Shown here piece by piece: positions 2,532 through 58,425 of a stretch of 64,000 bases of DNA. This stretch comes from Anadara kagoshimensis. Its lineage: Eukaryota > Mollusca > Bivalvia > Arcoida > Arcidae. Position numbers and translations under genes: made by a program. The stretch is from the NCBI GenBank assembly GCA_021292105.1, contig CM037871.1, positions 55,134,866-55,198,865 on the forward strand, read 5' to 3'. The notes below the pieces were generated by a model. That model was not told where the DNA came from. It ran no database searches and saw only the letters and a program-made list of their open reading frames with translations. Within the stretch, counting starts at the first letter, position 1. Each line of letters begins with the position of its first letter.

Positions 2532-3472
2532 ATAAAATATAAGCTGTATTGTTCCCCTTGCACTCTCATTCAAGTATTCTTTAACAATGTCCATATTTAA
2601 AATCTGGCTTCTTTGATCCGTTATAAATTTACGTTCGTGGTGAAATCATTACACACATGAGTGGACACAATTTTACAGACTTATGATTTCATGACATGTT
2701 ATAGTTATTATGAGATCTTTAGATGTAGATTTCTTAGAAGAGAGAACTATTAATAATAAGATAATTACTATGGCACAAGCAAATTTTTGGAGGATGGTAG
2801 ACTAATGTGTTTTTATGTTCACGTCAAGTAGACCTAAGTTTTCTTGCAACCGAGTAATTTAATTCTGATTTTAAAAGTATATCGGGTCTTCTAGTAAGTC
2901 TTGTTATTTGACCATTTCCGGATACAAAAACATAGGTATGATTGGTGGCCGCATTATGTTAGATGCCCCCTTGTAAGTCTTCGTCTTTTGGCGTAACTGT
3001 CATTACGTTTTGCTCTTTCATTTCAGTTTCCTCTAATGTTATATTAAAATGTAATGTATATGTAACTGCTTGTGTTATGTCATTTAAGATATTATACAAT
3101 ATCGTGATGTAACATTTGCAAAGATAAGATTAAAACCGGGCCATTCAATATTGTAACATCGATTAAGTAGATAAGTTAAGATCCAATACTTCTCAATATC
3201 AAATTATGAAGCAGATGTCATTGCACTGGGTCAAATATACATGCATTATGAAAACAAAGTCTTACTGATCATTTATCATATCAATCATTCTAACATGACA
3301 TGTTTTTTCCTTTGTATGGAACATGAAGAGATTCATCGGGCCGTGGTAAGACAAACAAAATTCCCATGTTTGACTTGTTCCCTTACTTACGTTGTGACGT
3401 CATGCTATGTGTTACAAACAATACATGTAAATTAAATTTAAACAGCACAAATACAGCATATATCAAAAGCAA
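2532..3472. other. AT-rich non-coding DNA
   Basis: No gene or recognised repeat. Short open frames here have no domain, no codon bias and no splice context. Confidence 0.5.
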
Positions 3473-3592: not shown

Positions 3593-3659
3593 ACAACTAA
3601 CATTAAAGTGAATACATGTTGCAAAGATGTTTGAAACATTTTTTATAAACCAAAAGTGT

Positions 3660-3880
3660 CACATATATTCAAAATGCCATGTCATATCGTTCAAAGTTTT
3701 GCCTTAGGTCGAATTGGTAAAAATATTTTGTTACTTCTATTTTCTTAAAATATTTTGATTTCAACAATTTTGGCACTACTGTGACACATGACACTACTGA
3801 TGAGGAATTTTATTCCAAAAGGGTCGTTTAGTGCTGCAAAATTAAAACATATACAGGTTTAGTAATACATGAAAGAAAAA
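3660..3880 (+). mobile_element. Decayed retrozyme-like copy with degenerate hammerhead
   Basis: Contains GACACTA-CTGATGA, a GGAAT/ATTCC stem II and a TAGTGCT stem I strand, as in the intact hammerheads at 23574 and 23874. The flanks are similar too (TTTCAACAATTTTGGCAC upstream, GTTTAGTAATACATG downstream). The GAAA core reads AAAA and the GTC cleavage triplet is changed, so this copy should not cleave. Confidence 0.65.
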
Positions 3881-9450: not shown

Positions 9451-10557
9451 TTAAACCCCATTTTCATGAGTAAGATCGTCCTTGACTGGCACTGCTTTAA
9501 CATAAGCATGCGATTTACAAAATAATTTGTGACATCCTTGAAGGAACAAAGACTTTGCTTCGTTTCTGAATCTAGAACCACTGAAAATATACAATAAGAA
9601 ATTAAATGTGTTATTAAAATACATTAGGATGTTACAAATTGACCAATGTAAATCGTGCCTGGCGTAGTCATAATCTGTCCAACTAGTCCGGGACTGATCC
9701 TCAAATATATTATAAATACTTATAGGCGTGGTACAGAAAAGAAATACTGTATTTAACGTAAATAACATGAGCGTTATAGAAGACATCCTGGTATTTGGAC
9801 CAGAGTTGTTATTTTTGGTTGAAGTCCTTCGGCTTTTCTCTTTGTGCCATTTTAGAATCTTTATACTAATCAACGTATTCCCAATAAGTAGACAACAGAA
9901 TGGAATGAGTGAAAATATGGCGAAATCTATCCATGGCCAAGTTTCGTTGAAAAATAATTTATACGAATCATCGATGAACTCACAATTTTTATATGTGGTG
10001 ATATTCCCCTCTGTAATATTTCTGCTTGCTGAGCCATGTAAGATATGAGCATTAACGGCTACTAAAAAAACGAATATGGTAGATATAATGATACACCCAG
10101 TTGACTTTGTACAGCAATGTTTGGCTTTATGAGGAAACCAAACCAAAACCAACCGGTCAAACGTCACAGCCACTAAAAGCCATGCTGAAAAATCCAGAGA
10201 AAAATATGTCAGGAATATATGGATCTTACACCCGGCTTCACTGTAATGGCGAACGTGTAACCCAAACTCATACTGTAACCAATGTCGCATTAACCCGGTA
10301 TACAACACAACCGTATCAGAAAACGCCAGTACAATCAGATATAACGCACTCGTTGATTTTACAATCTTCGGTTGTAACAGAATAATCACAGACAAAATGT
10401 TTCCAATCGTACCCACAATTATAAATATCGGTGGTATTATTTGCCATAGATTTTTCGTGATCACTTCCTCCACATATTCGTGATTCTCCGTGATCATTGG
10501 TGTAGAATTATTCACATATTCGTGACTCCCCGTGATAATTGATGTAGAATTATTCAT
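9451..10557 (-). CDS. Rhodopsin-family peptide-type GPCR, intronless
   Basis: Complete 368 aa receptor in one exon with seven membrane segments. TM1 is at about 41-62 (GN at 52-53). TM2 is at about 70-92, with SD at 80-81. TM3 begins after Cys110, which probably bridges to Cys192 in the second outer loop, and ends in DRL (134-136) instead of DRY. TM5 has Pro219. TM6 has FCTTP (274-278), lacking the usual Trp. TM7 has NFLLY (319-323) instead of NPxxY. Cys342 and Cys347 in the tail could be palmitoylated. The outer N-terminus carries a 14-residue duplication (NNST..IT..HEYV at 2-15 and 16-29) with N-glycosylation sites. It probably sits in the plasma membrane and senses a neuropeptide. It resembles the lineage-expanded orphan receptors of molluscs often annotated as FMRFamide- or TRH-receptor-like. 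The ligand cannot be told from sequence. Confidence 0.92.
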   Translation of the reverse strand: MNNSTSIITGSHEYVNNSTPMITENHEYVEEVITKNLWQIIPPIFIIVGTIGNILSVIILLQPKIVKSTSALYLIVLAFSDTVVLYTGLMRHWLQYEFGLHVRHYSEAGCKIHIFLTYFSLDFSAWLLVAVTFDRLVLVWFPHKAKHCCTKSTGCIIISTIFVFLVAVNAHILHGSASRNITEGNITTYKNCEFIDDSYKLFFNETWPWIDFAIFSLIPFCCLLIGNTLISIKILKWHKEKSRRTSTKNNNSGPNTRMSSITLMLFTLNTVFLFCTTPISIYNIFEDQSRTSWTDYDYARHDLHWSICNILMYFNNTFNFLLYIFSGSRFRNEAKSLFLQGCHKLFCKSHAYVKAVPVKDDLTHENGV

Positions 10558-12662
10558 TGTGATATCCTATGTGTTAACAATATAGTTGACGTTAAAAATG
10601 AAAACACGTTGTGATTTGAAACACACGAACAAAACCGTGCTTAAATCACAATGTCATAATCGTTAAATACAATTCGCAACATAAATCACTTGTATCCCAT
10701 ATCAACATATCCTTCACGTTGTGTTACCGAAATATTATAGTTTAAATGTGTCTGTATTTCCTAGTTATAATGTTTTGCTCCTAATAAATTTCAGTAAATC
10801 GCTGTCACAATATCTCACATAACCCTTTACCACAACAAAAACCTAATCACAGAATTTGATTCCACAAAGCTTACAAGTTTTATAGTTTTTAATATGTCGA
10901 TGTCTACAGTTATATTAAATGACAAAATACTACTGGTATTGCCATGGTAATGAAGGCAATCCTTGTCAAATTAACCCTCCATTGTATGAGCAATTTGTCA
11001 GCAACTAGTAATTACAATATGTTCCAAACACAATAATAGGACAATCTCTAATTATTGTTTACCATAGAAAGAGAATGACAGTATTTTTCTAGGTCAATCC
11101 GTTTTTGCTGAGATTTTTTTCCAATTTAGCTTTATTATTTCATTTACATATAAATATTGTTTGTTTTCCCCAAATGTAATAAACTTGGTGGTACTTACTG
11201 CGAGAGACGACGCTTTTATAATTATACATCCATAAATTCGAAATGCCCGTGGATTACGAGTTAATATATTGTAATATTGATGCTATTTTTCCATTAAAGG
11301 AACGTGTGCTTAAATAAATACAGTTATCGACCTTAATTTTCGTCCCATATTTATTCCATATGTCAAATCAATAAAAATCCATAATCAATAACCGTGAATT
11401 TCAATTAATCCATATATTAACATATTAGAATCTGTTCTATAGTTTAAAAATCATTTAAAATATCCTCAACACACAAATACAACAAGTTTAACTTTTTGTG
11501 AAATCTTTCAACTAACACTAAGCTATTTCAGTAATCCAACATTATATTGTCACTTGTCTCCTTTCATCAGAACTCCAAATGTATAAAATACGTCGTTTTA
11601 AAGTGTGAAGTCTTTGAACTGATTCAAGCATATTCCTTCTAGCATTAATTACGCATATATATTCATCAAATCCCAACTTCTTCCATTTTACACATAAGAT
11701 GTGAACTCTGTATTTTAACTTGATTTAAGACGCTGAGAGATACTTATATGTTTTATCCACCTTCAAAAAAAATCGTTGATAGGTTGACAGATGACGACCA
11801 ATCAGAAACAATTCAAACAAACCAGTATTAAACACATTAATTAGTTCAACACACGTGCTCGTCCAAACTAAACAGTATTTATAACGGATACTGGTGAGTG
11901 TAGATAACCAACAGCTGTACGTATCGAAGTGTTATGTATGGTATGGATAGACAGCCGTGTGCTGAGGTGATTTCATCTTGGAGCTGAGAGCGACGGAGCG
12001 TGAACGTAAATAAAGCTTATTTTAGAGTATCCATTCGTTATTTACATCACAATTGGAATAATGCACTATCAAATAAATTCTCGAATATTTATGAAGGATA
12101 AAGTTACATGTATGTATTACAAATCATGACACGCTAAGTTAGAAAAATTGAACCATAATTTAGAGTAAATCACTATGATATAAATTCCCGGATATTTATA
12201 ATAAAAATACGTCACTTAAAAAGTTGACAAGTATATATATTACAAAACATGACACGTTAAGTTTTCAATAATTGATCTTAAATACTTAGTCAATAATGCT
12301 TATTTTCCCGTTACAAAAGAAATTTGAAGATTATCGGAACTATGTACTGGTAACGGAAATCATTGAACATATCAATCTGTTCCAAATAACAACAGCATAT
12401 ATGGTAATTAATTCGTAATGATATGCATTTGGAAAGACATTTTGGGATGTATTAGTTGTAATTTCCTAGTAATAAAATTCCGGGATGTTTATAACACAAT
12501 CCATCAATAATCAACCAAGTCATGTGTAAATGATATGTGTAATTAAATATAGAATGGACCTTAGATATTATTTCCGGTTCAACGATTTTGTAATTAATCT
12601 TCCTATTATGTGGAATAATCAGTTATACATAGATACAGCGTCTAAATGAAAAGGGTTTGATA
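10558..12662. other. Region upstream of the GPCR gene, non-coding
   Basis: About 2.1 kb without a convincing gene. It should hold the receptor's promoter, but I see no element I would name. Loose repetitions around 12050-12300 (ATTCTCGAATATTTATGA / ATTCCCGGATATTTATAA, each followed by TTACAAATCATGACACG-like text) suggest an old tandem duplication of about 130 bp. Confidence 0.45.
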
Positions 12663-15681: not shown

Positions 15682-16053
15682 TTGGGTTGAGTAATGACGT
15701 CCCAGAAATGAATTTTTCACTTATATTTAGACGATGCCATCTATTGACGAAGGTGCAAAAATTCGCATGTGCATTGCGCTGATGACATTATACAGCAGGG
15801 TTTTTTATCGTGCAAACCGTAGAGTTTATTTTAATTTCCATCCGAAAGAACTGGACAGCATTTCGTAATACTGAGTGCTTGGCGAAAGAACAGTCACAAC
15901 CTACTTTCAAGTCTTGGGTCAGACCAAGTCGGGGTTCGAACTCACGACCTACTTTCAAGTCTTGGGTCAGACCAAGTCGGGGTTCGAACTCACGACCTCC
16001 AACTTACGGAGCGAGCACTCTATTATAGCCACCAACTGAGCTACCACAGTGGT
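15682..16053 (-). mobile_element. tRNA-derived SINE (family S) with internal 48 bp duplication
   Basis: Same family as 521-862, reversed. The B-box region (GGGGTTCGAACTCACGACC) and its flank are duplicated exactly: 15899-15946 and 15947-15994. The copy therefore carries two B-box-like segments and one A box. Confidence 0.88.
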
Positions 16054-23458: not shown

Positions 23459-23573
23459 TAATCATAAAATACATTAAAGTATTTCCTTAGCTTAATTTGG
23501 TAAAATATATTTTGGTCCTTTGGGTAGCTTTTTAACATCTTCAAAATAATTTTGGTTTCATAATTTTGGTCCA

Positions 23574-23620
23574 AGCACTACTGATGAGGAATTGTATTCC
23601 GAAACGGCCGTCTAGTGCTG
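23574..23620 (+). ncRNA. Type I hammerhead ribozyme, copy 1
   Basis: Stem I is AGCACTA (23574-23580) paired with TAGTGCT (23613-23619). The core CTGATGA is at 23581-23587. Stem II is GGAAT/ATTCC with a TGT loop (23588-23600). GAAA is at 23601-23604. Stem III is the self-complementary ACGGCCGT, too short for a proper loop. Cleavage is expected after C23612 in GTC. Every conserved core base is present. Such a short stem III usually works better as a double hammerhead formed by two copies. Confidence 0.9.
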
Positions 23621-23873
23621 TAAAATTAAAACTGGTATAATATGTAATTTAAACCCCAGAGCCGATATCTCTGCTGGTGGCTGGTGCCCCGAGGATATCA
23701 CAAACTCAAACAAACTAAATTTCCTGCAAGTTAAAATTTGAAATTTCTCAAAAACTAAAGTATACTACCTCATGCAAAGTATTTCCTTAGCTTAATTTGG
23801 TAAAATATATTTTGGTCCTTTAGGTAGCTTTTTAACATTTCCAAAATAATTTTGGTTTCATAATTTTGGTCCA

Positions 23874-23920
23874 AGCACTACTGATGAGGAATTGTATTCC
23901 GAAACGGCCGTCTAGTGCTG
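23874..23920 (+). ncRNA. Type I hammerhead ribozyme, copy 2
   Basis: Base-for-base identical to copy 1, exactly 300 bp downstream. The predicted cut follows C23912. Cutting at both sites would release a 300 nt RNA (23613-23912). Confidence 0.9.
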
Positions 23921-23995
23921 TAAAATTAAAACTGGTATAATATGTAATACATTAAAAAGTGATTTATGTATTGTCACTTTTTATGTATTTTATGA

Positions 23996-25074
23996 TTACG
24001 TTGAAAAATTGGTATATATAAGTACTTTTGAAGCGAAAGCTATAATTCCGAAGGAAAATATTGGCAACAAATAAATATTTAACTTGCTCTTTATTATCAT
24101 AGTAAATACAGTACAGGGAATATAATTGTTTAATTTGAACATATTCCGGGTTCAGTGGTTATGCCAAATGAAGGTAAAGACCTTATTACTCAAGTTTATC
24201 ATTATCTCTCTTGCCTTAGAATATTTTTTATAAATAGTTAATTCAAGAGATTCATTCATATTGTCCTTAATTATCAAGCCAGTATCTAGTGTAATTGTTT
24301 GGGGACCGAAGCTGTAATAAAATAGAATTTATTACTAAACCATCGAGATTTTAATCTGAGTGAAATATCAAAGTAAGTGGATTGTGCTTCATGTTTGCCT
24401 TTTGACGTACAATAAATACATTTATTGTAAATCTGTTACAGTGAGTTTTCAATTAATTTATAATACAAACCCTGTGGCTGATTTAGAAACACTAACATAG
24501 TCTTTGTTTAATCCATATTATCGGATTTTGCTTGGTTCTGCAAGAATTGTTTGCAAATGCAAGGGAATGTTATACCATGGAACTACATAGCCTTATAATG
24601 CTCATAATGCAAAATAAATAAATAAATAATAAAAAAATTAAAGTAAAATTTAATTAAATTTAAAAAATATGAATTTATATTCTGAAATTGTTATTATTGA
24701 ATGTCGATAATTTGGTCTGCAATTAAGTATTTCTATGCACGTGTCTTTAAAAAATACACATTAAATTCCCGTATAACATCTTGAACAACATCAAAATTGT
24801 TTAAAAACTTTTTATATATATATTTATCATAGAAAATTTTAGTGAAGACATATTTTTCTTTTTTTGAACTGAGGCCAGACATTATAGGCCCTTGAAATGA
24901 ATTAAATATTACATATTAAAATCCTGAATATCTTGAAAATAACAAATTATTTAAAATATTAAATTTGATATATTTATCTTAGAAAAGGAATGGTTGTGAA
25001 ACTGAGGCCCGACATTGTAACGTCAAACAATTATATCCCATTGGCGGAAAACTCGATCGTCTTTAAACCCATCG
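23996..25074. other. Very AT-rich non-coding DNA
   Basis: No gene. An (AATA)n-like patch lies at 24612-24650. Near 24750-25020 two phrases recur (TTAAATTCCCGTATAACATC / TTAAAATCCTGAATATCTTG, then ACTGAGGCC.GACATT), indicating a local duplication of about 130 bp. Confidence 0.45.
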
Positions 25075-27972: not shown

Positions 27973-28645
27973 TAAATATTCACAATTTCCCATCAGAAAC
28001 GGCATAGAATTTAAAGAGAAATAGCAACTATTTAGCAAAGACAAGCCATAACAAAATAAAAAGAATAAGAAACATTATCATTATAAAATGGCGCGTTATT
28101 CTCTTGCATGATAGATTAAATAATTAAAATGTTGGTGCCGTGACTTTTTCTTTGATTCATCGTTTAACCGGTAATCGGACATAATAATCCATCTTTAGGG
28201 ACAATAATCTAACACAAAACATATATAATTGTGTGAAGATTTATTTTTGTGTACTCTACATACTCGGCCATTACATCAAATAATCTAATTACAGAATTTG
28301 TTTATTAAATTATTTCGTTAAAAGAGAACATTATGGTCGTAAACACTTGGAAGTGATTGAGTACCACTGTCAATTAAAACGTACATTCTTTATCTCACCG
28401 AACTACAGGTATCGGTATCGTATTTATTTAGTTCCGAAAATAAAACATGATGGAATACCAGTGTTCAAAGAGTTTACACCAACCTTTACTGATGAAAAGT
28501 ACAAATTATGTGACTGAAAAATGTTACGCTTTCTGATGTTGCCAAATTGCTGGTAAATAACATGTACTAGACAATAGTCAATGTAACCAAAAACACAAAA
28601 TCAACTAAACATTGTGAAATGATTAATTGATAAACACGTCGTGTC
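27973..28645. other. AT-rich non-coding DNA
   Basis: No gene or recognised repeat. The stretch just before 28646 may be eroded RT sequence. Confidence 0.4.
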
Positions 28646-30185: not shown

Positions 30186-30576
30186 TTACATACATGTTTG
30201 ACTGTAATTAAATAATATTCTTGGTAATAGTCAGAAACATAAGATAGTCAGAGGAAACCAAGAACATGTCGCACATAAGATAAACACATTGACGCTGCTA
30301 TCGGTAATATATAACAGCCAGACTTAGATTTATTTTCTATTTTTCCAGATAATTCTGTAATCCATTATTTAAACTTTCCTTAACAGCTCAGAGTAATTAA
30401 ATTTAAATCCAATTTACCCATCTTTTTATTCTGTCTAGCTCTGATAACAATTCCAACTAGATAATTGGAATTGCAACCAGTTCTTAAATTCTAAAATAAA
30501 ATGTCACAAATGTTATATGATATTCCCTGATAGAAAAGCGAAATTAGAAAAGGAGATATCCTTGTCTGATTTTATG
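30186..30576. other. AT-rich non-coding DNA
   Basis: No gene or recognised repeat. Confidence 0.4.
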
Positions 30577-30635
30577 TGCCATATACCATTTTTTGAATTT
30601 AATCATAAAATATATTCAAAAAATGGTATATGGCA
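30577..30635. repeat. Perfect 22 bp inverted repeat (hairpin)
   Basis: The left arm TGCCATATACCATTTTTTGA + AT (30577-30598) and its exact reverse complement (30614-30635) enclose a 15 nt loop. The loop region ATTTAATCATAAAATA resembles the target of the retrozyme at 23459. No transposon-like flanks are obvious. Confidence 0.9.
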
Positions 30636-31499
30636 TATGCATTATCATGAATCAAATTTCCTTTCATCGAAATCTAATACAAGTCTGAAAAGTCTGAACG
30701 ATATTATTTTCAAGTTTCGAATGATCATAACTAGTGTATCTGATATTTAAAAAAAGTATTTAGCCAATACATAACCTGTAACAAAAAAAAAGTTCCAGAC
30801 CGTTCCATCACATGATCACTACTCCATTCCTGTTTAACCAATTCAATGCACTTGAAATTACAGTAGGATTTCCAATATAAAGATGGATATAGATTCCGGA
30901 GACGGGAACAGACTAATATCATTTACAAGTTATAAGTATGACTTATACGTTATTTATACTAAAACAGATAACCTACCTAACTGAAACATCACCAATAAGG
31001 AGTCTGTCACCATCGTAATTGGAAATCAATTTAATAATAAAAAACCTCAAAATATTAAGATCACCTGTCTATAAAGCATGCATATTTACTGTATTTCCAA
31101 GTTTCCAAGTGCATTGTGTTGGTTAAATATGGAATTATTAATCATGTTCACTGTTCATTGGAGATCAAAGTAATGAATTATAAGTTTACTTAGAAACTTA
31201 GAAGAAAAAGAATAAAATTTACTTGTTCAGAATCCTCGATTTTAAATATAAAAACAATATGCACGAAGTGGCTAAGCGTGGTAAAAAGAACCCAAGATAC
31301 ATTTTAATTTTTGTTCAATGCTTCATCAGCATTCATTATTATGTCATTAATTTTAAACAGAACACCGTAAAGGCCCCATGCATTGATGCTATATATTTGA
31401 ATTTTCAGTCATCCACGCATTTTTTTTAAATTCTCTCTAGCAGGGAATTTTCCAGTTCGACAAGAAAAGTAAAACGCACATTGCGACCACTGATTGTTT
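30636..31499. other. AT-rich non-coding DNA
   Basis: No gene. Short open stretches have no support. Confidence 0.4.
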
Positions 31500-36763: not shown

Positions 36764-37649
36764 CAAATAATCCCTGTTAATAAGCTAAGATACAATGTTT
36801 GTTCTCCGTTATTGTTGCTCGTTCTGATACTCTGTGTGCTTTGTACTTTGATAAATTTGAATTTATACCATGATTCTGATAATGAAAACTGAGAGATATT
36901 TAACATTTCCAAGGACAATAACATATTATCATATACTTTCAGATTGTCAATTTTAATGTTACATTTATGACTAAGGAAAAACTAGCGTTCTGGATATTGA
37001 AAATGATTTGACAACATGATTATTTGTCATAATACAATGTTTCTCAAATACAAGATATCTGTGTATTCAAAATATATTGCGCTATGAAAAAATATCGTGT
37101 CGATAGTTTTTATTTTCTTGTTAGGGTTCTATGATTCTTTACCATGATATAAAAATATGTGCAGACAAAAGCTGGCAAATACACGTAGTCTGTTGGGTTT
37201 ATTAACTGTCTTTTATTCGAGTTAATTTATCACCTCCTCTTACATCTAGTTATAAAAAGGATAAAATGATTTGAGCAGTGTTGTAAATGTATGGTTTCTC
37301 CATCAGACTGATTTATTTGTAATGTCTCTAGTAAGTCACAGTAATGTTTCAAAATCAACTCAGTACCATCATATGGACTATTATCTTGTTGTGTCGTAAC
37401 CTACACAGATTGGAAGTTAAAGGTAACGCGGCGGTCATTGTTCTGAGCAATGATGCTTACTAATGACTCCGGTTATTAAATATGCTTTCTTATCTGTCTC
37501 CTTTAACGCTAAAATCTATAATAAATCTACATAATATAAGCATCCTTTAATTCCCCGTTAATTTCATGCTTCGTCTTATCCGATTTATGTTAATATTTTG
37601 TACTTTTCACTTTCAAAGTAGGAAGCCATTATGCTAGCAAAACTTATTT

Positions 37650-38012
37650 ACGGGGACTTTGTACAACGAAACATGCTGCCAGCAAATAAATTGTTGACTT
37701 GGGGATATTGCAAGCCTAGGCTTATCAAGGCCCTCAAAAATTCTGATGTCCGTCATCACAGTATTGTTTAAAGTTTTATATCTCTGTGTCCAGGATTGTC
37801 CTGGATATATTTGACGTCCCATAATTTATTTTCCTTTCACACAATTTTGATTACACACGTGACTGGTGTAGCTAGCGAAACAGGAGGTACTTACCCTCCT
37901 GGAACACCCGGTCTCACTTCCCTGGTTGAAGATCACGTGTCTAACCTGACTTGTCAGTTCCAAAGTTTTCACTTTGTTTGTGGACATGGATTTGTGTGTT
38001 GGTTTTTTTTAC
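37650..38012 (+). mobile_element. YIDD-type RT retroelement, 3' fragment (unit A)
   Basis: TACGGGGACTTTGTACAACG, then GGCCCTCAAAAATTCTGATG, then AACAGGAGGTACTTACCCTC. The terminus has lost most of its last 30 bp (TTTGTTTGTGGACATGGATT). Confidence 0.82.
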
Positions 38013-38115
38013 ATATAGAATAAAATGCGCACAACGCCTATATATTTACATGTAAATGAATTATGAAAATCGAGGGACATTTGATATGTAAAAATGTCTT
38101 AATCTTTTATTGATT

Positions 38116-38422
38116 TGAGTTTAGTAATGGTGTTTTACGTCTTAGTCAAGAATATTTCACTTATATCGAGACGTCGCCAGCTATAGGTGCAGGTGCAGAA
38201 ATTTTGCATGTGCGTTGCACTGATGACATTATACAGCAGGGTTCTTTATCTGGCCACGCCCAGCGTGACACGGGACCTCGTTTATTTTAAGTTCCCACCC
38301 GGAATAACCGAGATTTTCATTTCGTAATGCCCAGTGCTTGGTGAAAGAACAGTCAATACACACTTTCAAGTCTTGGGTCAGACCCACCCGGGGATCAAAC
38401 CCACGATCTCCCACTTACGATC
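38116..38422 (-). mobile_element. tRNA-derived SINE (family S), unit A copy
   Basis: Tail at the left (AGTAATGGTGTTTTACGTC), body GAGACGTCGCCAGCTATAGG and B-box region CCCGGGGATCAAACCCACGA. The A-box end is missing beyond CACTTACGATCG, a truncation shared with unit B and therefore older than the duplication. Confidence 0.88.
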
Positions 38423-39479
38423 GAAAAATCTTTTATTTAAATCATCATAGTACTCTAAAGATTTTTAGAATTATACAGATATAATTAAAAAGATCTTAAT
38501 CCTAACGGAAATAGGTTTACGTAATGTGGGTTATACTAGGGTTTAAATGCGCTCAGTCGATGTATTTTCGGTTTACTACTGCTTCAAATAACTGTTTTTT
38601 CATTTTTTTTCATCTGGAGTGGTGTTTGCAGACACCGTAGGTGTAAGTCACACAAAATAATCATGTTCTGAATTACACAAAAATACGAATTTGTTAAACA
38701 TTATATAATGTAACTACAGATAATGTTTCCTTTCTTATACAGGAGTAATGTATTATATTTAATTGTTGTAATACGCAGAGACGAAAATAATCCCTATGCG
38801 ATTCTTAAATAATGTCTATGTTAATCTGGCTTTTTATACAGTGCTTAGGTGTTTGAACTCTGAGATTTATAGACTCTTGTACCAGATAAGTATGGCGTTA
38901 AGATGTAAACAATGTATAATATAACATATAGTATTGATTAGGAAATAAAGCCACCTCGTGATATATTCTTCTGCATATGAAATCCGGTCCGTGTACTATT
39001 CGACGATATACCACGGGTAAATATTGATCATTTCAATTTTATCATAACTTAGATGAAAAATATTGAAATAAACATTGCGAACTCTTTCTTCGGAAGCACA
39101 TTTTACTATCTATTTGCTAAAAGGCACATTGAAACAATGTCGGCTGTTGAGATTACCTTTATTGAAATAAAAGAATTTATGAATGAAAATAACCTCACAA
39201 CCATTGTTTGCGACACATAGCATGACCTCATTAGATTAGCAAGGGAGTACGTCATTAAAACGGCACAGCGATAGGTATATCGTTTGATACACTACGGCTA
39301 CCTCTCTTCATGTTTCATATGAAGGAAAACGCAGGTCATGTTAGAATTAAAACCAATTGATGTTAACGTTTGTTAACAATCTGCAATAAAGCTATTTACA
39401 ATCAGTAAAGTAATGTTAAATTAGAATTGATACTTCTATGTTTCTATAAAATCGAAGAAGTCTGTGACACATCCAAATG

Positions 39480-40328
39480 ATCTTCGAGTACTAAACCGTC
39501 TAGATGCAAAAATTTCGGCAATTCTATCAGACATACACAAGAAGCTGATAATGCTTCCAACAACATTATCTGTAAGAGATTTCTACTTTGAATGTCCTAT
39601 AAAGGAGCTAGGTTAAGATAGTGTATTGGATAACCCTACATAAACTAGAACTGTTTTGCAATAGATAAAGTTCTTTCCAACCATAACGGAGTTCTTGCGT
39701 TTTTTGGTATCGATCTTAAAGAGGAAGAACTTGACCTTCCTGGCTTGTATTTGGTTCCTAAACTTCATAAAAACCCATAAAAGAAAGATATATAGCAGGT
39801 TCATCTAAATGTACTACTAAATCAATATCAGTAACTCTAACACAAATTTTGACAGTCATAAAAGATAGTCTTTTAGTATTTTCAGATGTTTATTTTACAT
39901 CTGGTATCAATCAAATGTGGATTCTAAAATATTCTGAAGAATTACTTTACCTTTTGCGTCTAATTAGTATTGCTTCTAATACTTTAACTCGTGTAAAAAG
40001 TATAAAAACGTTTGATATATCTGCACCTTAGACAACTATCCCCCATTCTAAATTGAAATAACTTCCTACACAAATTATCCACTTGTCATTCTTGTGCTTA
40101 ACACGGATTCTGCTTATTTTGTCAAGCGTTATACGGTTTCCAAATAAGCATTAGTTGCTTATGAAATATTAAAAACGAAAAATCAACAGGTCCTGGTGGT
40201 TTCAACGCAAGACACATTTTTGGAAATTTTCGTCTACTTCCTTCATTCGTTTCTTTAAACGAATTGTTCACTTCTATTTCTTTTACAAAAATGGTGAGCC
40301 AAGATATAAATATCTAGTGCTGAACAGG
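39480..40328 (+). mobile_element. YIDD-type RT retroelement, RT fragment cut by duplication (unit A)
   Basis: Carries the first part of the RT domain, including sequence for a PKLHKNP-type block near 39740-39775 and SGINQMWILK near 39900-39930. It stops abruptly at 40328, where the next tandem unit begins. Broken in several places. Confidence 0.78.
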
Positions 40329-41279
40329 CAAATAATCACTGTTTAAAGACTAAGATACAATGGTTGTTCTCTGTAATTGTTGCTCTTTCTGATACTCAGT
40401 TTACTTTGTACTTTATTAAATTTGAAAGTTAGACTTTGATTCTTATGATGAAAACTAAGAGATATATAACAATTTACAAGGACATTAACATATTATCATA
40501 TATTTAAAAATTGTCAATTTTAATGTAACATTTATGACCAAAGAAAACCTAGGGTCCTCGGTATTGTAAATGGTTTTATGGACATCAAGAAAATAAAACC
40601 TGATGACATGATGATTTGTCATAGCACACACACAGTATTTTTTTCAAACTTACATTTTTCACTAACTGATAAATTACAAGTACAAGATACCTGTGTGTTC
40701 GAAATATAATGCGCTATGAAAAAATTATCGTGTCGATAGTTTTCATTTTCTTGTTAGGCTTCTATGCTTCTTTACCATGATATAAACGAATTTATACAGA
40801 CAAAAGCTGGCAAATAGTATGTTGGGTTCGTTGACTGTCTTTGTATTCGAGTTAGTTTACAACCTCCTCTTACATCTATTTATAAAACGGATAAAATGAT
40901 TTGAGCAGTGTTGTAACTGTATGGTTTCTTCATCAGACTGATTTATTTGTAATGTCTCATTAGTAAGTCACAGTAATGTTTCAAAAACAACTCAGTACCA
41001 TCATATGGACTATTATCTTGTTGTGTCGTAACCTACACAGATTGGAAGTTAAAGGTAACGCGGCGATCATTGTTCTGAGCAATGATGCTTACTAATGACT
41101 CCGGTGATTGAATATGCTTTCTGAACTGTCTCCTTTAACGCTAAAATCTATAATAAATCTACATAACATAAGCATCCTTTAATTCCCCGTTAATTTCATG
41201 CTTCGTCTTATCCGATTTATGTTAATATTTTGTACTTTTCACTTTCAAAGTAGGTTGCCATTATGCTAGCAAAACTTAT

Positions 41280-41630
41280 TTACGGGGACTTTGTACAACG
41301 AAACATGCTGCCAGCAAATAAATTGTTGACTTGGGGATATTGCAAGCCTAGGCTTATTAAGGCCCTAAAAAATTCTGATGTCCGTCATCACAGTATTGTT
41401 TAAAGTTTCATGTCTCTGTGTCCAGGATTGCTCTGGATATATTTGACGTCCCATAGTTTATTTTCTTTTCACACAATTTTGATTACACACGTGGCTGGTG
41501 TAGCCAGCTAAACAGGAGGTACTTACCCTCCTGGAACACCCGGTCGGTCTCACTTCCCAGGTGGAAGATCACGTGTCTAACCTGACTTGTCAGTTCCAAA
41601 TTGTTTACTTTGTTTCTGGACGAATGAAAT
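41280..41630 (+). mobile_element. YIDD-type RT retroelement, 3' fragment (unit B)
   Basis: Counterpart of 37650-38012, with a small CGGT duplication (CCGGTCGGTCTCACTTCC) near 41541. Confidence 0.82.
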
Positions 41631-41690
41631 ACGCACAACGCCTATATGAATTATGAAAATATGTAAAAGTGTCTTAATCTTTTATTGATT

Positions 41691-41882
41691 TGAGGTTAGT
41701 AATGGTGTTCTACGTACCCAGCGTGACACGGGGCCTCGTTTATTTTAAGTTTCCACCCGGAATAACCGAGACTTTCATTTCGTAATGCCTAGTGCTTGGC
41801 GAAAGAACAGTCACTACCTACTTTCAAGTCTTGGGTCAGACCCGCCCGGGGATCAAACCCACGATCTCCCACTTACGATCGA
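41691..41882 (-). mobile_element. tRNA-derived SINE (family S), internally deleted unit B copy
   Basis: Counterpart of 38116-38422. The body between TGGTGTTCTACG and CCCAGCGTGACACGG is missing. Confidence 0.85.
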
Positions 41883-42939
41883 ATAATCTTTTATTTAAAT
41901 CATCATAGTACTCTAAAGATTTTTAGAATTATACAGATAAATTTATATAATTACAAAGATCTTAATCCTAACGGAAATAGGTTTACGTAATGCGGGTTAT
42001 ACTAGGGTTTAAATACGCTCAGTCGATGTATTTTCGGTTCACTACTGCTTCAAATAACTGTTTTTTTTCATTTTTTTTCATCTGGAGTGGTGTTTGCAGA
42101 CACCGTAGGTGTAAGTCACACAAAATAATCATGTTCTGAATTACACAAAAATACGAATTTGTTAAACATTATATAATGTAACTACAGATAATGTTTCCTT
42201 TCTTATACAGGAGTAATGTATTATATTTAATTGTTATAATACGCAGAGACGAAAATAATCCCTATGCGATTCTTAAATAATGTCTATGTTAATCTGGCTT
42301 TTTATACAGTGCTTAGGTGTTTGAACTCTGAGATTTACAGACTCTTGTACCAGATAAGTATGGCGTTAAGATGTAAACAATGTATAATTGATTGGGAAAT
42401 AAAGCCACCTCGTGATATATTCTTCTGCATATGAAATCCGGTCCGTGTACTATTCGACGATATACCACGGGTAAATATTGATCATTTCAATTTTATCATA
42501 ACTTAGATGAAAAATATTGAAAAAACATTGCGAACTCTTTCTTCGGAAGCACATTTTACTATCTATTTGCTAAAAGGCACATTGAAACAATGTCGGCTGT
42601 TGAGATTACCTTTATTGAAATAAAAGAATTTATGAATGAAAATAACCTCACAACCATTGTTTGCGACACATAGCATGACCTCATTAGATTAGCAAGGGAG
42701 TACGTCATTAAAACGGCACAGCGATAGGTATATCGTTTGATACACTACGGCTACCTCTCTTCATGTTTCATATGAAGGAAAACGCAGGTCATGTTAGAAT
42801 TAAAACCAATTGATGTTAACGTTTGTTAACAATCTGCAATAAAGCTATTTACAATCAGTAAAGTATTGTTAAATTAGACATTGATACTTCTATGTTTCTA
42901 TAAAATCGAAGAAGTCTGTGACACATCCAAAGGATCTTT

Positions 42940-44680
42940 GAGTACTAAACCGTCTACATGCAGAAATTTCTGCAATTCTGTCAGACATACACAAGAAGCT
43001 GATAATGCTTCCAACAACATTATCTGTAAGAGATTTCTACTTTGAATGTCCTATTAAGGAGCTTGGTTGAGATAGTGTATCGGATAACCCTACATAAACT
43101 AGAACTGTTTTGCAATAGATGAAGTTCTTTCCAACCATAAGGGAGTTCTTGAGTTTTTTGGTATCGATCTTAAAGATCTTAAAGAAGAAGAACTTGACCT
43201 TCCTGGCTTGTATTTGGTTCCTAAACTTCATAAAAACCCATAAAAGAAAGATATATAGCAGGTTCATCTAAATGTACTACTAAATCAATATCAGTAACTC
43301 TAACACAAATTTTGACAGTCGTAAAAGATGGTCTTGAGTCTTTTTCAGATGTTTATTCTACATCTGGTATCAACCAAATGTGGATTCTAAAATATTCTGA
43401 AGAATTACTTTACCTTTTGCTTCTAATTAGTATTGCTTCTAATACTTTAACTCGTGTAAAAAGTATAAAAACGTTTGATATATCTGCACCTTACACCACT
43501 ATTCCTCATTCTAAATTGAAATAACTTCTTAAAGAAATTATTTACTTGTCATTCTTGTGTTTTTCAGGGAATCTGCTTGTTTTTCAAGCATAATACGGTT
43601 TCCAAAGAAGTTATAGTTGCTTATGAAATATGAAAAAACGACAAATCACATGGTCCTGATGGTTTCAACGCAAGACACATTTTTGGAAATTTTTGTCTAC
43701 TTTCTTTATTCGTTCCATTAAACAAATGTTTCACTTGTATTTCTTTTACAAAAATGGTGAGCCAAGATACAAATACCTAGTGCTGAACAGGGATTCTGCT
43801 TATTTTGTCCAGTATCATATGGATTTCAAACAAAAATATACTGAGGATACAAAATATATTAATAGACAACACATTTGTTGTGTTTGGTAATATGACTTTC
43901 CAGCAAACAATAAGTATACCAATAAGCACAATCTGTGGACCATTTCTTTCATTGTTTCTCCATTTTTAAAAAGTAGAATTTATGCAGATCCTTGTTAGAT
44001 CTGGAAAGAAGACTCGCCAAAACACTCAACGTCACACACAGGTATATAGATAACATTCTATCTCTTATCAATCCTTTTGTAGACTATGAGAATGTCATCT
44101 ATACTAATGAGACTGAATCAAAAGATACGACTTATTCTTCAAGTTCTCTTTCATATTTATACTTATACCTCCATAATAACTCCCACGAAAGGCTTCATTT
44201 GAAAAGTATGACAAACGTGATTACTTCATTTTTTCTATTGTCCACTCTTCTTATCTATGCTGCAATATATCTGCTTCTCCTATTTATAATGTATTTGTTT
44301 CACAGTTAATACGCTATGGTAGAGATTGTTCCCACTACGGGAATTTTATACAACGAAGAAAGCTACTTACATATAAACTGCTGACCTAGGGATTTTGCAG
44401 GCCTACGCTTATCAGGGCCCTCAAAAAGCTTTATGGCCGTCATCACAGTATTATAGATAAGTATGATGTCCATGATTTGACCTCCCATAGTTTCATGTTC
44501 ATTTTACTCTAGGTGACGGGTGTAGCTAGCTAAACAGGAAGTGCTTACCCTTTCGGAGCACACAATTTCACTGCCCTGTTAGACGTTCACGTGTTTAACC
44601 TAATTTGTCAGTTTCAAAGTTTTTACTTTGCTTTTTGATTGTGATTCGGACATAGATAAGTATGTTTATTTTTCATCGTT
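42940..44680 (+). mobile_element. YIDD-type RT retroelement, longest copy
   Basis: The most complete copy. In order it shows sequence like ADNASNNIICKR, then LDLPGLYLVPKLHKNP (about 43190-43240), SGINQMWILK (near 43370), TFDISAPYTTIPHSKLK (ending 43524), RYKYLVLNRDSAYFV, THRYIDNILSL (catalytic box as YIDN, near 44040), the YDKRDDF-type region, the 3' region and the terminus (GTGATTCGGACATAGATAAG, near 44640). It is broken by several stops and shifts. The order and motifs fit a Penelope-like RT; no endonuclease is visible. Confidence 0.8.
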
Positions 44681-45429: not shown

Positions 45430-45640
45430 GTTGAAATTACTGTAGGGCACTGTAAAGTAAGACGGATTTAGCAAAATCTTTTTGGGTCTTATTTTTCTCA
45501 TTTAAAATATCTTGAAATTACATGTACTTGGATTTCAACAATTTCCGTTCGTGCACTTATAACACTGATGATGAATTTTGATCCGAAAACGACCGTCTAT
45601 AGCTGAACAATTCAAACAGGTTTAGTAATACATGTGTAAT
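45430..45640 (+). mobile_element. Decayed retrozyme-like copy with degenerate hammerhead
   Basis: CTGATGA (45565-45571), CGAAA (45584-45588) and CCGTC (45593-45597) keep hammerhead spacing, and GTTTAGTAATACATG follows as in the copy at 3660. Stem II pairing is largely lost and stem I is weak, so cleavage is doubtful. Confidence 0.55.
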
Positions 45641-48827: not shown

Positions 48828-49059
48828 GCCAATATACGATCGACTCTGGCTCAGTTGCCAATATACGATGACCTCTGGCTCATTTGTCAATATACGATGA
48901 CCTCTGGCTCAGTTGCCAATATACGATGGCCTCTGGCTCAGTTGCCAATATACGATGGCCTCTCGCTCAGTTGCCAATATACGATGACCTCTGGCTCAGT
49001 TGCCAATATAAGATGGCCTCTGGCTCAGTTGCCAATATACGATGGCCGCTGGCTCAGTT
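48828..49059. repeat. 29 bp minisatellite, eight units
   Basis: The unit is GCCAATATACGATGRCCTCT + GGCTCAGTT, repeated eight times with few changes and ending directly before a SINE head. Both translated frames look like repetitive protein only because of the array. Confidence 0.95.
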
Positions 49060-49068
49060 GGCTCTACA

Positions 49069-49408
49069 AATGCGGTAGCTCAGTTGGTAGTATGTTCGCA
49101 CCGTAAATGGGAGGTTGCATGTTCGATCCCCGACAGGCTCTGACCCATGACTTGAAAGTGGGCAGTGTTCTTTCGCCAATTGCAAGCACTCAGCATTACG
49201 AAATGAAAGTCTCTGTTCATTCGGATGGGAAATTAAAATAAACGAAGTCCTGTATCACGGTAGGCGTGACACGATAAAGAACCCTACTTTGCATAATGTC
49301 ATCAGCGCAAAGACAGGCAAAATTTCTGCACCTTCGCCTATAGCTGGCAACGTCTCGATATAAGTGAAATATTCTTGACTTGGACGTTAAACATCGTTAC
49401 TCAACTCT
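49069..49408 (+). mobile_element. tRNA-derived SINE (family S), near full length
   Basis: A box GGTAGCTCAGTTGGTAG, B box TGTTCGATCCCCGAC, body CGCCTATAGCTGGCAACGTC, tail GTTACTCAACTC. Its head follows the 29 bp minisatellite by about 10 bp. Confidence 0.9.
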
Positions 49409-57821: not shown

Positions 57822-58300
57822 ATGTCCAAATCACAATCCAAAAATCAAACATACGAATTCATGTCCAAATCACAATATCGAAATCAAACACAAACATACT
57901 AACCCATACACGTCAAAATCACAATCCCAAAGTCGGCCATAAATATACAACCCATGTCCAAATCGCAATCACAATGTCAAATACACACATACCAATCCAT
58001 GTGTAAATCACTTAATCACAACCCCAAAGTCAAACACAAACATACGAAACCAACATGTTCAAATCACAATCCCAAAGTCAAACACAAACATAACAATCCA
58101 TGTCAAAAGCACAATCCCAAAGTCAAACACAAACATACCAACCCATAAATGTCAAAATCACAATCCGAAAGACAAACACAATTATACAAACCCCATGTCG
58201 AAATCACAATACCGAAGCCAAATACAAACATATAGGGATTTGTCCAAGTCACAATTCTGAAGTCAAACACAAACATAGCAATCTATGTCCAAATCACGAT
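57822..58300 (-). repeat. Satellite of about 44 bp units grown from the retroelement 3' end
   Basis: Ten to eleven units with consensus TGTCCAAATCACAATCCCAA followed by AGTCAAACACAAACATACCA and ATCCA. Each is the outermost 40-odd bases of the YIDD element terminus in minus orientation. The array leads without a break into an ordinary terminus at 58301. Units vary from 38 to 56 bp and differ at many positions. Confidence 0.88.
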
Positions 58301-58425
58301 CCCAATGCATGGTAAAACTTTGAAACTGACAAACAAAACTGTGACCTTCTATAAGGTATACGAGGCCAGTGCTCCGAAGGGTAAGCACCTTCTGTTTAGC
58401 TAGCAACAACCGTCAAGAAGGTGAA
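58301..58425 (-). mobile_element. YIDD-type RT retroelement, 3' terminus next to satellite
   Basis: ATGCATGGTAAAACTTTGAA, then TGCTCCGAAGGGTAAGCACC, then CTGTTTAGCTAGC. It is the inner continuation of the last satellite unit. Confidence 0.78.

Follow-up and report, generated by a model that had tools for sequence, protein, structure and literature searches.

A probable metazoan non-LTR retrozyme copy with two type I hammerheads and a readable insertion site in Anadara kagoshimensis

The locus described here is best explained, with a probability of about 85%, as the genomic copy of a retroelement that is small, non-coding and non-autonomous, namely a metazoan non-LTR retrozyme. It lies in the window, which is the whole 64-kb (64,000-nt) stretch of DNA that was analyzed, and its parts are listed in Table 1 together with two relatives, copies A and C. 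The retrozyme is the best-supported class because type I hammerheads, a dimer-like tandem of a 300-bp unit with 34% GC, and a target duplication of more than 4 bp match published metazoan non-LTR retrozymes. An earlier note on this DNA had recognized the layout of an animal retrozyme, and that assignment is kept; its further claim of recent or ongoing activity is given up below. The main element is a real, well-preserved and ordinary copy of an already published kind of element that occurs in many animals, and what the locus offers is an insertion site that can be read from a split palindrome and a duplication, as well as three copies ending at a common word.

Table 1. Features of the locus and its relatives, with positions in the window
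Feature	Position	Strand	Evidence or remark
Left part of target palindrome (TAATCATAAAATACATTAAA), including left duplication copy	23459-23478	.	16-nt exact complement in right flank; joined flanks form hairpin
Left target-site duplication copy AATACATTAAA	23468-23478	.	5 to 11 bp given end ambiguity
Repeat copy 1, carries hammerhead 1	23476-23648	+	173 nt, 98.3% identical to 23776-23948
Type I hammerhead 1	23574-23619	+	RF00163 28.1 bits at 23575-23618, below gathering score; descriptor match
Predicted cut-to-cut RNA monomer, circle if ligated	23613-23912	+	300 nt; predicted from the published retrozyme pathway
Spacer, single occurrence	23649-23775	+	127 nt
Repeat copy 2, carries hammerhead 2, ends at GTAAT	23776-23948	+	173 nt, 98.3% identical to 23476-23648
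Type I hammerhead 2	23874-23919	+	RF00163 28.1 bits at 23875-23918, below gathering score; descriptor match
3' junction GTAATACAT, common to copies A and C	23944-23952	+	3/128 GTAAT sites run on as ACAT
Right target-site duplication copy AATACATTAAA	23946-23956	.	matches left copy
Remainder of interrupted target palindrome	23957-23998	.	joined-flank folding
Copy A, decayed single-unit relative	3687-3874	+	BLAST 71-73% identity; nhmmer 1.6e-42, profile built with copies A and C included
Copy C, decayed single-unit relative	45466-45633	+	BLAST 67% identity; nhmmer 5.4e-38, same profile

Hammerhead motifs and the repeated unit

Two identical type I hammerheads lie on the + strand at a spacing of exactly 300 bp, as the earlier note had described apart from the length, which is 46 nt and not 47 nt when counted from stem I to stem I. 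Each consists of a 7-bp stem I (AGCACTA/TAGTGCT), the core CTGATGA, a 5-bp stem II (GGAAT/ATTCC) closed by a TGT loop, GAAA, the stem III ACGGCCGT and the cleavage triplet GTC; that all of these are intact in both copies had been proposed before and is confirmed by reading of the sequence and by a structural descriptor. Cleavage is predicted to occur after 23612 in the first hammerhead and after 23912 in the second. Stem III comprises 2 bp with a GGCC tetraloop, or 8 bp when formed in a dimer, and may for this reason work better in dimers. The covariance check suggested for the motifs was run with the Rfam model Hammerhead_1 (RF00163) on 701 nt and succeeded in part, as each site was recovered over the full model (E 1.1e-4) with a score that nonetheless falls short of the gathering score of 34. 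A search of the whole window with RF00163, up to E 5, listed neither hammerhead, which is probably due to stricter filters on longer input.

The descriptor requires CTGANGA, a stem II of at least 3 bp, GAAA, stem III, a cleavage base other than G and a stem I of at least 5 bp. Its only 2 matches in the window are the two hammerheads, none occurs in 500 dinucleotide shuffles (both strands), and relaxing it adds no further match in the window; judged by the Rfam score and the descriptor shuffles, the motifs are well beyond chance. A much looser pattern, CTGATGA-gap-GAAA-gap-TC, is matched 4 times in the window, where 0.63 matches are expected and a count of 4 was reached in 1 of 100 shuffles; the matches are both hammerheads, copy C and a site at 28489 that looks like chance. 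The exact 29-position hammerhead pattern has no match in a viral-contig collection and none in a prokaryote-genome collection; an 18-nt version found in 2 viral contigs was attributed to chance, the context by eye being without the second half of a hammerhead. An outer extension of stem I (TAATTTT/AAAATTA) is not claimed, as 430 of 2000 shuffled flanks pair equally well. In local folding the free structure (-14.7) beats the hammerhead-constrained one (-10.2), a comparison made with standard parameters, which leave out tertiary contacts.

The hammerheads are carried by two direct repeats of 173 nt with three differences between them (23522, 23539 and 23541 in the first unit). The insert amounts to about 1.57 units with one hammerhead per unit, in agreement with an earlier description of a 300-bp unit repeated 1.5 times, and the unit falls in the retrozyme range of 150-450 bp. 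The GC content of the unit, which lies under the retrozyme criterion of <45-50%, says little because the window itself is at 33%. The 127-nt spacer contains no stretch of 9 or more purines, and 173-nt direct repeats fit an LTR or a non-LTR layout. None of the 16 ORFs of at least 100 aa in the window lies inside the insert, which is shorter than 500 nt.

The retrozyme pathway published in PMC7229834, PMC7761336 and PMC4918200 runs from transcription through hammerhead cleavage and ligation of the tRNA-ligase type to a reverse transcription step in which the circle is copied into more than one unit. Applied to this locus, read-through transcription would be followed by hammerhead cutting at 23612/23613 and 23912/23913, the 300-nt RNA would be released and ligated by a host RNA ligase, and the circle would be reverse-transcribed for more than one turn by the enzyme of another element, primed on a nicked AATACAT-like target, before integration with target duplication. 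Slightly more than one and a half turns around such a circle would account for the length of the insert. Penelope-like elements are the authors' favored candidate for the enzyme that moves retrozymes, according to PMC7229834 and PMC7761336.

High self-pairing is a described trait of published retrozyme RNAs. The predicted 300-nt circle folds at -48.9 kcal/mol against -49.6 +/- 5.2 for shuffles, 107 of 200 of which are as low, and it is 57% paired compared with 55% in 200 shuffles (z +0.14); as modeled, its structure is thus not unusual in stability or in pairing. This trait of retrozymes is therefore not found here, and it is not treated as defining because the papers identify retrozymes by the hammerhead and the tandem layout.

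The intact cores had been taken earlier as a sign of recent or ongoing activity. This is not borne out, as three differences in 173 positions would, even without selection, all spare a 46-nt hammerhead in about 39% of cases (by arithmetic), and the other two copies in the window have broken hammerheads. Both points are equally those expected of an inert fossil, in which the hammerheads survive only through a fairly young insertion and the copy is not used now. Such a fossil has even odds, and being a denial of present activity only, it is compatible with the retrozyme reading.

Relatives in the window and their common 3' end

Copies A and C, which the earlier note did not mention, lie on the same strand as the main element and are proposed to be older members of its family. 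This gives three family loci in 64 kb, with unrelated downstream flanks. By eye, copy A retains a hammerhead remnant around CTGATGA at 3797 in which GAAA has become AAAA and stem III is broken, and copy C keeps the core letters (45565-45597) with stems I and II broken and an extra base before stem III; the descriptor, even when relaxed, matches neither copy. The hammerhead is conserved at 40 of 46 positions in copy A and 38 of 46 in copy C, compared with 96 of 136 and 83 of 136 elsewhere, giving p values of 0.03 and 0.007, each uncorrected and from one alignment. As the ribozyme is thereby better conserved between loci than the remainder, the alignments suggest that it was under selection while the family was moving.

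A resemblance to the 127-nt spacer is tentative for both copy A and copy C, with 9 and 10 of 500 mononucleotide shuffles scoring as high, and the 5' ends of both copies are therefore uncertain. A possible duplication at copy A, AATACATG at 3611 and 3864, was noticed post hoc; the same word also occurs at 3420, and random 8-mers recur at that distance in 227 of 20,000 trials. A flanking duplication was also looked for around copy C, and none was found.

The 3' ends are more uniform, since the main element, copy A and copy C all end at GTAATACAT, beyond which the similarity of the flanks is at chance level. Among 128 GTAAT sites counted on the + strand, the three that are followed by ACAT are the three element 3' ends. 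AAT ends 36 nt past the cut in the main element, 38 nt past it in copy A and 32 nt past it in copy C. Inside the main element repeat 1 runs on as GTAATTTAAACC, so that ACAT lies outside the 300-nt unit, and ACATT is target at this locus because the palindrome shows it to be so; the target of the main element itself contains AATACAT. For copies A and C, either insertion occurred at AATACATG targets or the end was inherited from their own RNA.

By analogy with the "tail" of Penelope-like elements, the fixed 3' end suggests that reverse transcription may start at a specific site. A tentative and rather doubtful extension of this to the retrozyme family would be that reverse transcription begins at a single fixed position in the RNA, about 35 nt past the cut, and is primed at AATACAT-type targets by pairing of 3-7 nt or by sequence preference. 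If true, a circular template would here be copied from an internal start of the Penelope-like kind, which would give a pointer to the machinery behind the mobility of animal retrozymes; if the common end holds genome-wide, direct tests become possible both of where reverse transcription begins and of which targets are preferred.

The position of the common end past the cut can also be read as that of a miniature Penelope-like derivative, in which 173-nt pseudo-LTRs with hammerheads would surround a 127-nt body and a Penelope-like enzyme would start internally past the ribozyme, making circular RNA unneeded. In PMC11167929, insertions of Penelope-like elements are described as having a short tail at their end, where copying had started at internal sites past the hammerhead, and cleavage is preferred at ATT in AT-rich DNA; the lizard Penelope-like protein is described there as copying from internal RNA sites past the hammerhead with the same preference. 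The common end resembles this behavior, although it lies at another distance and although a window with 33% GC offers many AT-rich targets. In the anole element, start sites at 111-118 nt into the ORF and a cut at 26 nt into the ORF (same source) place the start farther from the cut than here. Stem III, which is absent from the minimal hammerheads described for Penelope-like elements, is present here, and no minimal Penelope-type hammerhead occurs in the window besides the two sites, by a rule that gives 8 matches per 100 shuffles. The RT/GIY-YIG open frame of Penelope-like elements has no counterpart in the insert, which is under 500 nt long and holds not one of the 16 ORFs of at least 100 aa, and no reverse transcriptase or transposase was found among the 106 of 179 stop-to-stop ORFs of at least 60 aa that were scanned (8 and 98 in two sets), the other 73 having been set aside by hand, with no fixed rule, as overlapping, low-complexity or short. 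A Penelope-like derivative is thus improbable, and the retrozyme reading is retained.

The set of 8 ORFs yielded one GPCR and nothing mobile, and the set of 98 two weak, unrelated Pfam families. The GPCR is a rhodopsin-family open frame on the minus strand (9451-10566; Pfam 7tm_1, 1.2e-22) whose N-terminal end holds a 42-bp tandem duplication (10471-10556). Other repeats in the window include an adjacent segmental duplication of about 3 kb (37045-40328 and 40677-43791; 93-95% identity over the two longest aligned pieces), a 29-bp minisatellite of 8 copies (48828-49060) crossed by a 108-aa open frame, and a nested complex tandem array (57846-58305) with periods of about 45, 93 and 140 bp. A dispersed family on both strands (518-863, 15697-15950, 38111-38425, 41717-41875 and 49065-49407) is possibly a tRNA-derived SINE; one copy holds a tRNA-like stretch at 525-590 that scores 25.6 in Rfam against a cut-off of 29.

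The insertion site

The 11-nt word AATACATTAAA occurs in the window, searched on both strands, only as the two flanking copies, and the earlier observation that the same sequence stands on both sides of the element is upheld. Only ACATT can be assigned to the target without ambiguity, because the end of repeat 1 accounts equally well for AAT in the right copy, as does the start of repeat 2 for AAA in the left copy. The duplication is therefore 5 to 11 bp long, above the 4 bp exceeded in retrozymes; duplications of 15 bp are reported for Nematostella retrozymes. An 11-nt match at a spacing of 478 nt, with the ends free by 4 nt, was obtained for 4 of 20,000 random pairs.

When the flanks are joined with a single AATACATTAAA, they can form a hairpin of 25 pairs that leaves one base unpaired. 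With DNA parameters, 100 nt of joined flanks fold at -18.9 kcal/mol, whereas the 100-nt pieces from either flank reach -3.1 and -11.4; equally strong folding is seen in 2 of 1278 stretches of the window. As the collapse of one copy restores the hairpin, the insert split a pre-existing palindrome, and this explains a flanking inverted repeat that would otherwise be suggestive of a Helentron-type element. Other strong, MITE-like palindromes lie at 2326-2463 and about 30551-30650, with matches to microRNA precursor models that are far below cut-offs and probably reflect long hairpins only. The possibility that the latter is a second instance of the target palindrome was considered and abandoned, as only a short AT-rich stretch is shared (82-85% over 39-45 nt).

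A Helentron-associated element (HINE), whose core would be a ribozyme-bearing satellite array, to which the inverted repeats and 3' hairpin would belong, and which would move by rolling-circle DNA transposition, is very improbable: a tandem array flanked on both sides by inverted repeats, with a hairpin past its 3' end, is indeed published HINE anatomy (PMC7492417), but here the inverted repeats and the hairpin merge into one continuous palindrome once one AATACATTAAA is removed, as expected for insertion into a palindrome, a duplication is present whereas Helitron-type elements make none (PMC7492417), and copies A and C are without such flanks, having no inverted repeat of more than 5 nt at their assumed ends (5' ends uncertain) and 3' flank folds of only -2.4 to -3.5 kcal/mol against -9.7 for the main element.

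Comparison with known systems

The locus can be set beside four kinds of element. Helentron-associated satellite-bearing elements (PMC7492417) likewise have a short tandem array between inverted repeats and a downstream hairpin, and differ from this locus in its duplication and in the bare flanks of its window relatives. Hammerhead Penelope-like elements (PMC11167929) share a type I hammerhead, a partial tandem, a 3' end shortly past the ribozyme and an AT-rich target; unlike them, the present element has no ORF, retains stem III and shows another distance from cut to end.

Plant LTR retrozymes (PMC4918200) are alike in their target duplication and in having a non-coding center between direct repeats that carry two hammerheads. 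They have type III hammerheads, a length of 600-800 nt, 4-bp duplications, a primer-binding site and a polypurine tract, and the type I topology and the duplication of 5-11 bp at this locus do not agree with a retrozyme of this plant type.

In the accessible portions of PMC7229834 and PMC7761336, no description was found of a shared 3' end that overlaps with an AATACAT target, as seen in all three copies here, and the predicted circle differs from those of metazoan non-LTR retrozymes in not being notably self-paired. The elements described there are otherwise those to which this locus is closest in kind, with one type I hammerhead per unit of about 300 bp, arrangement as dimers upward, low GC, duplications of more than 4 bp and no coding capacity.
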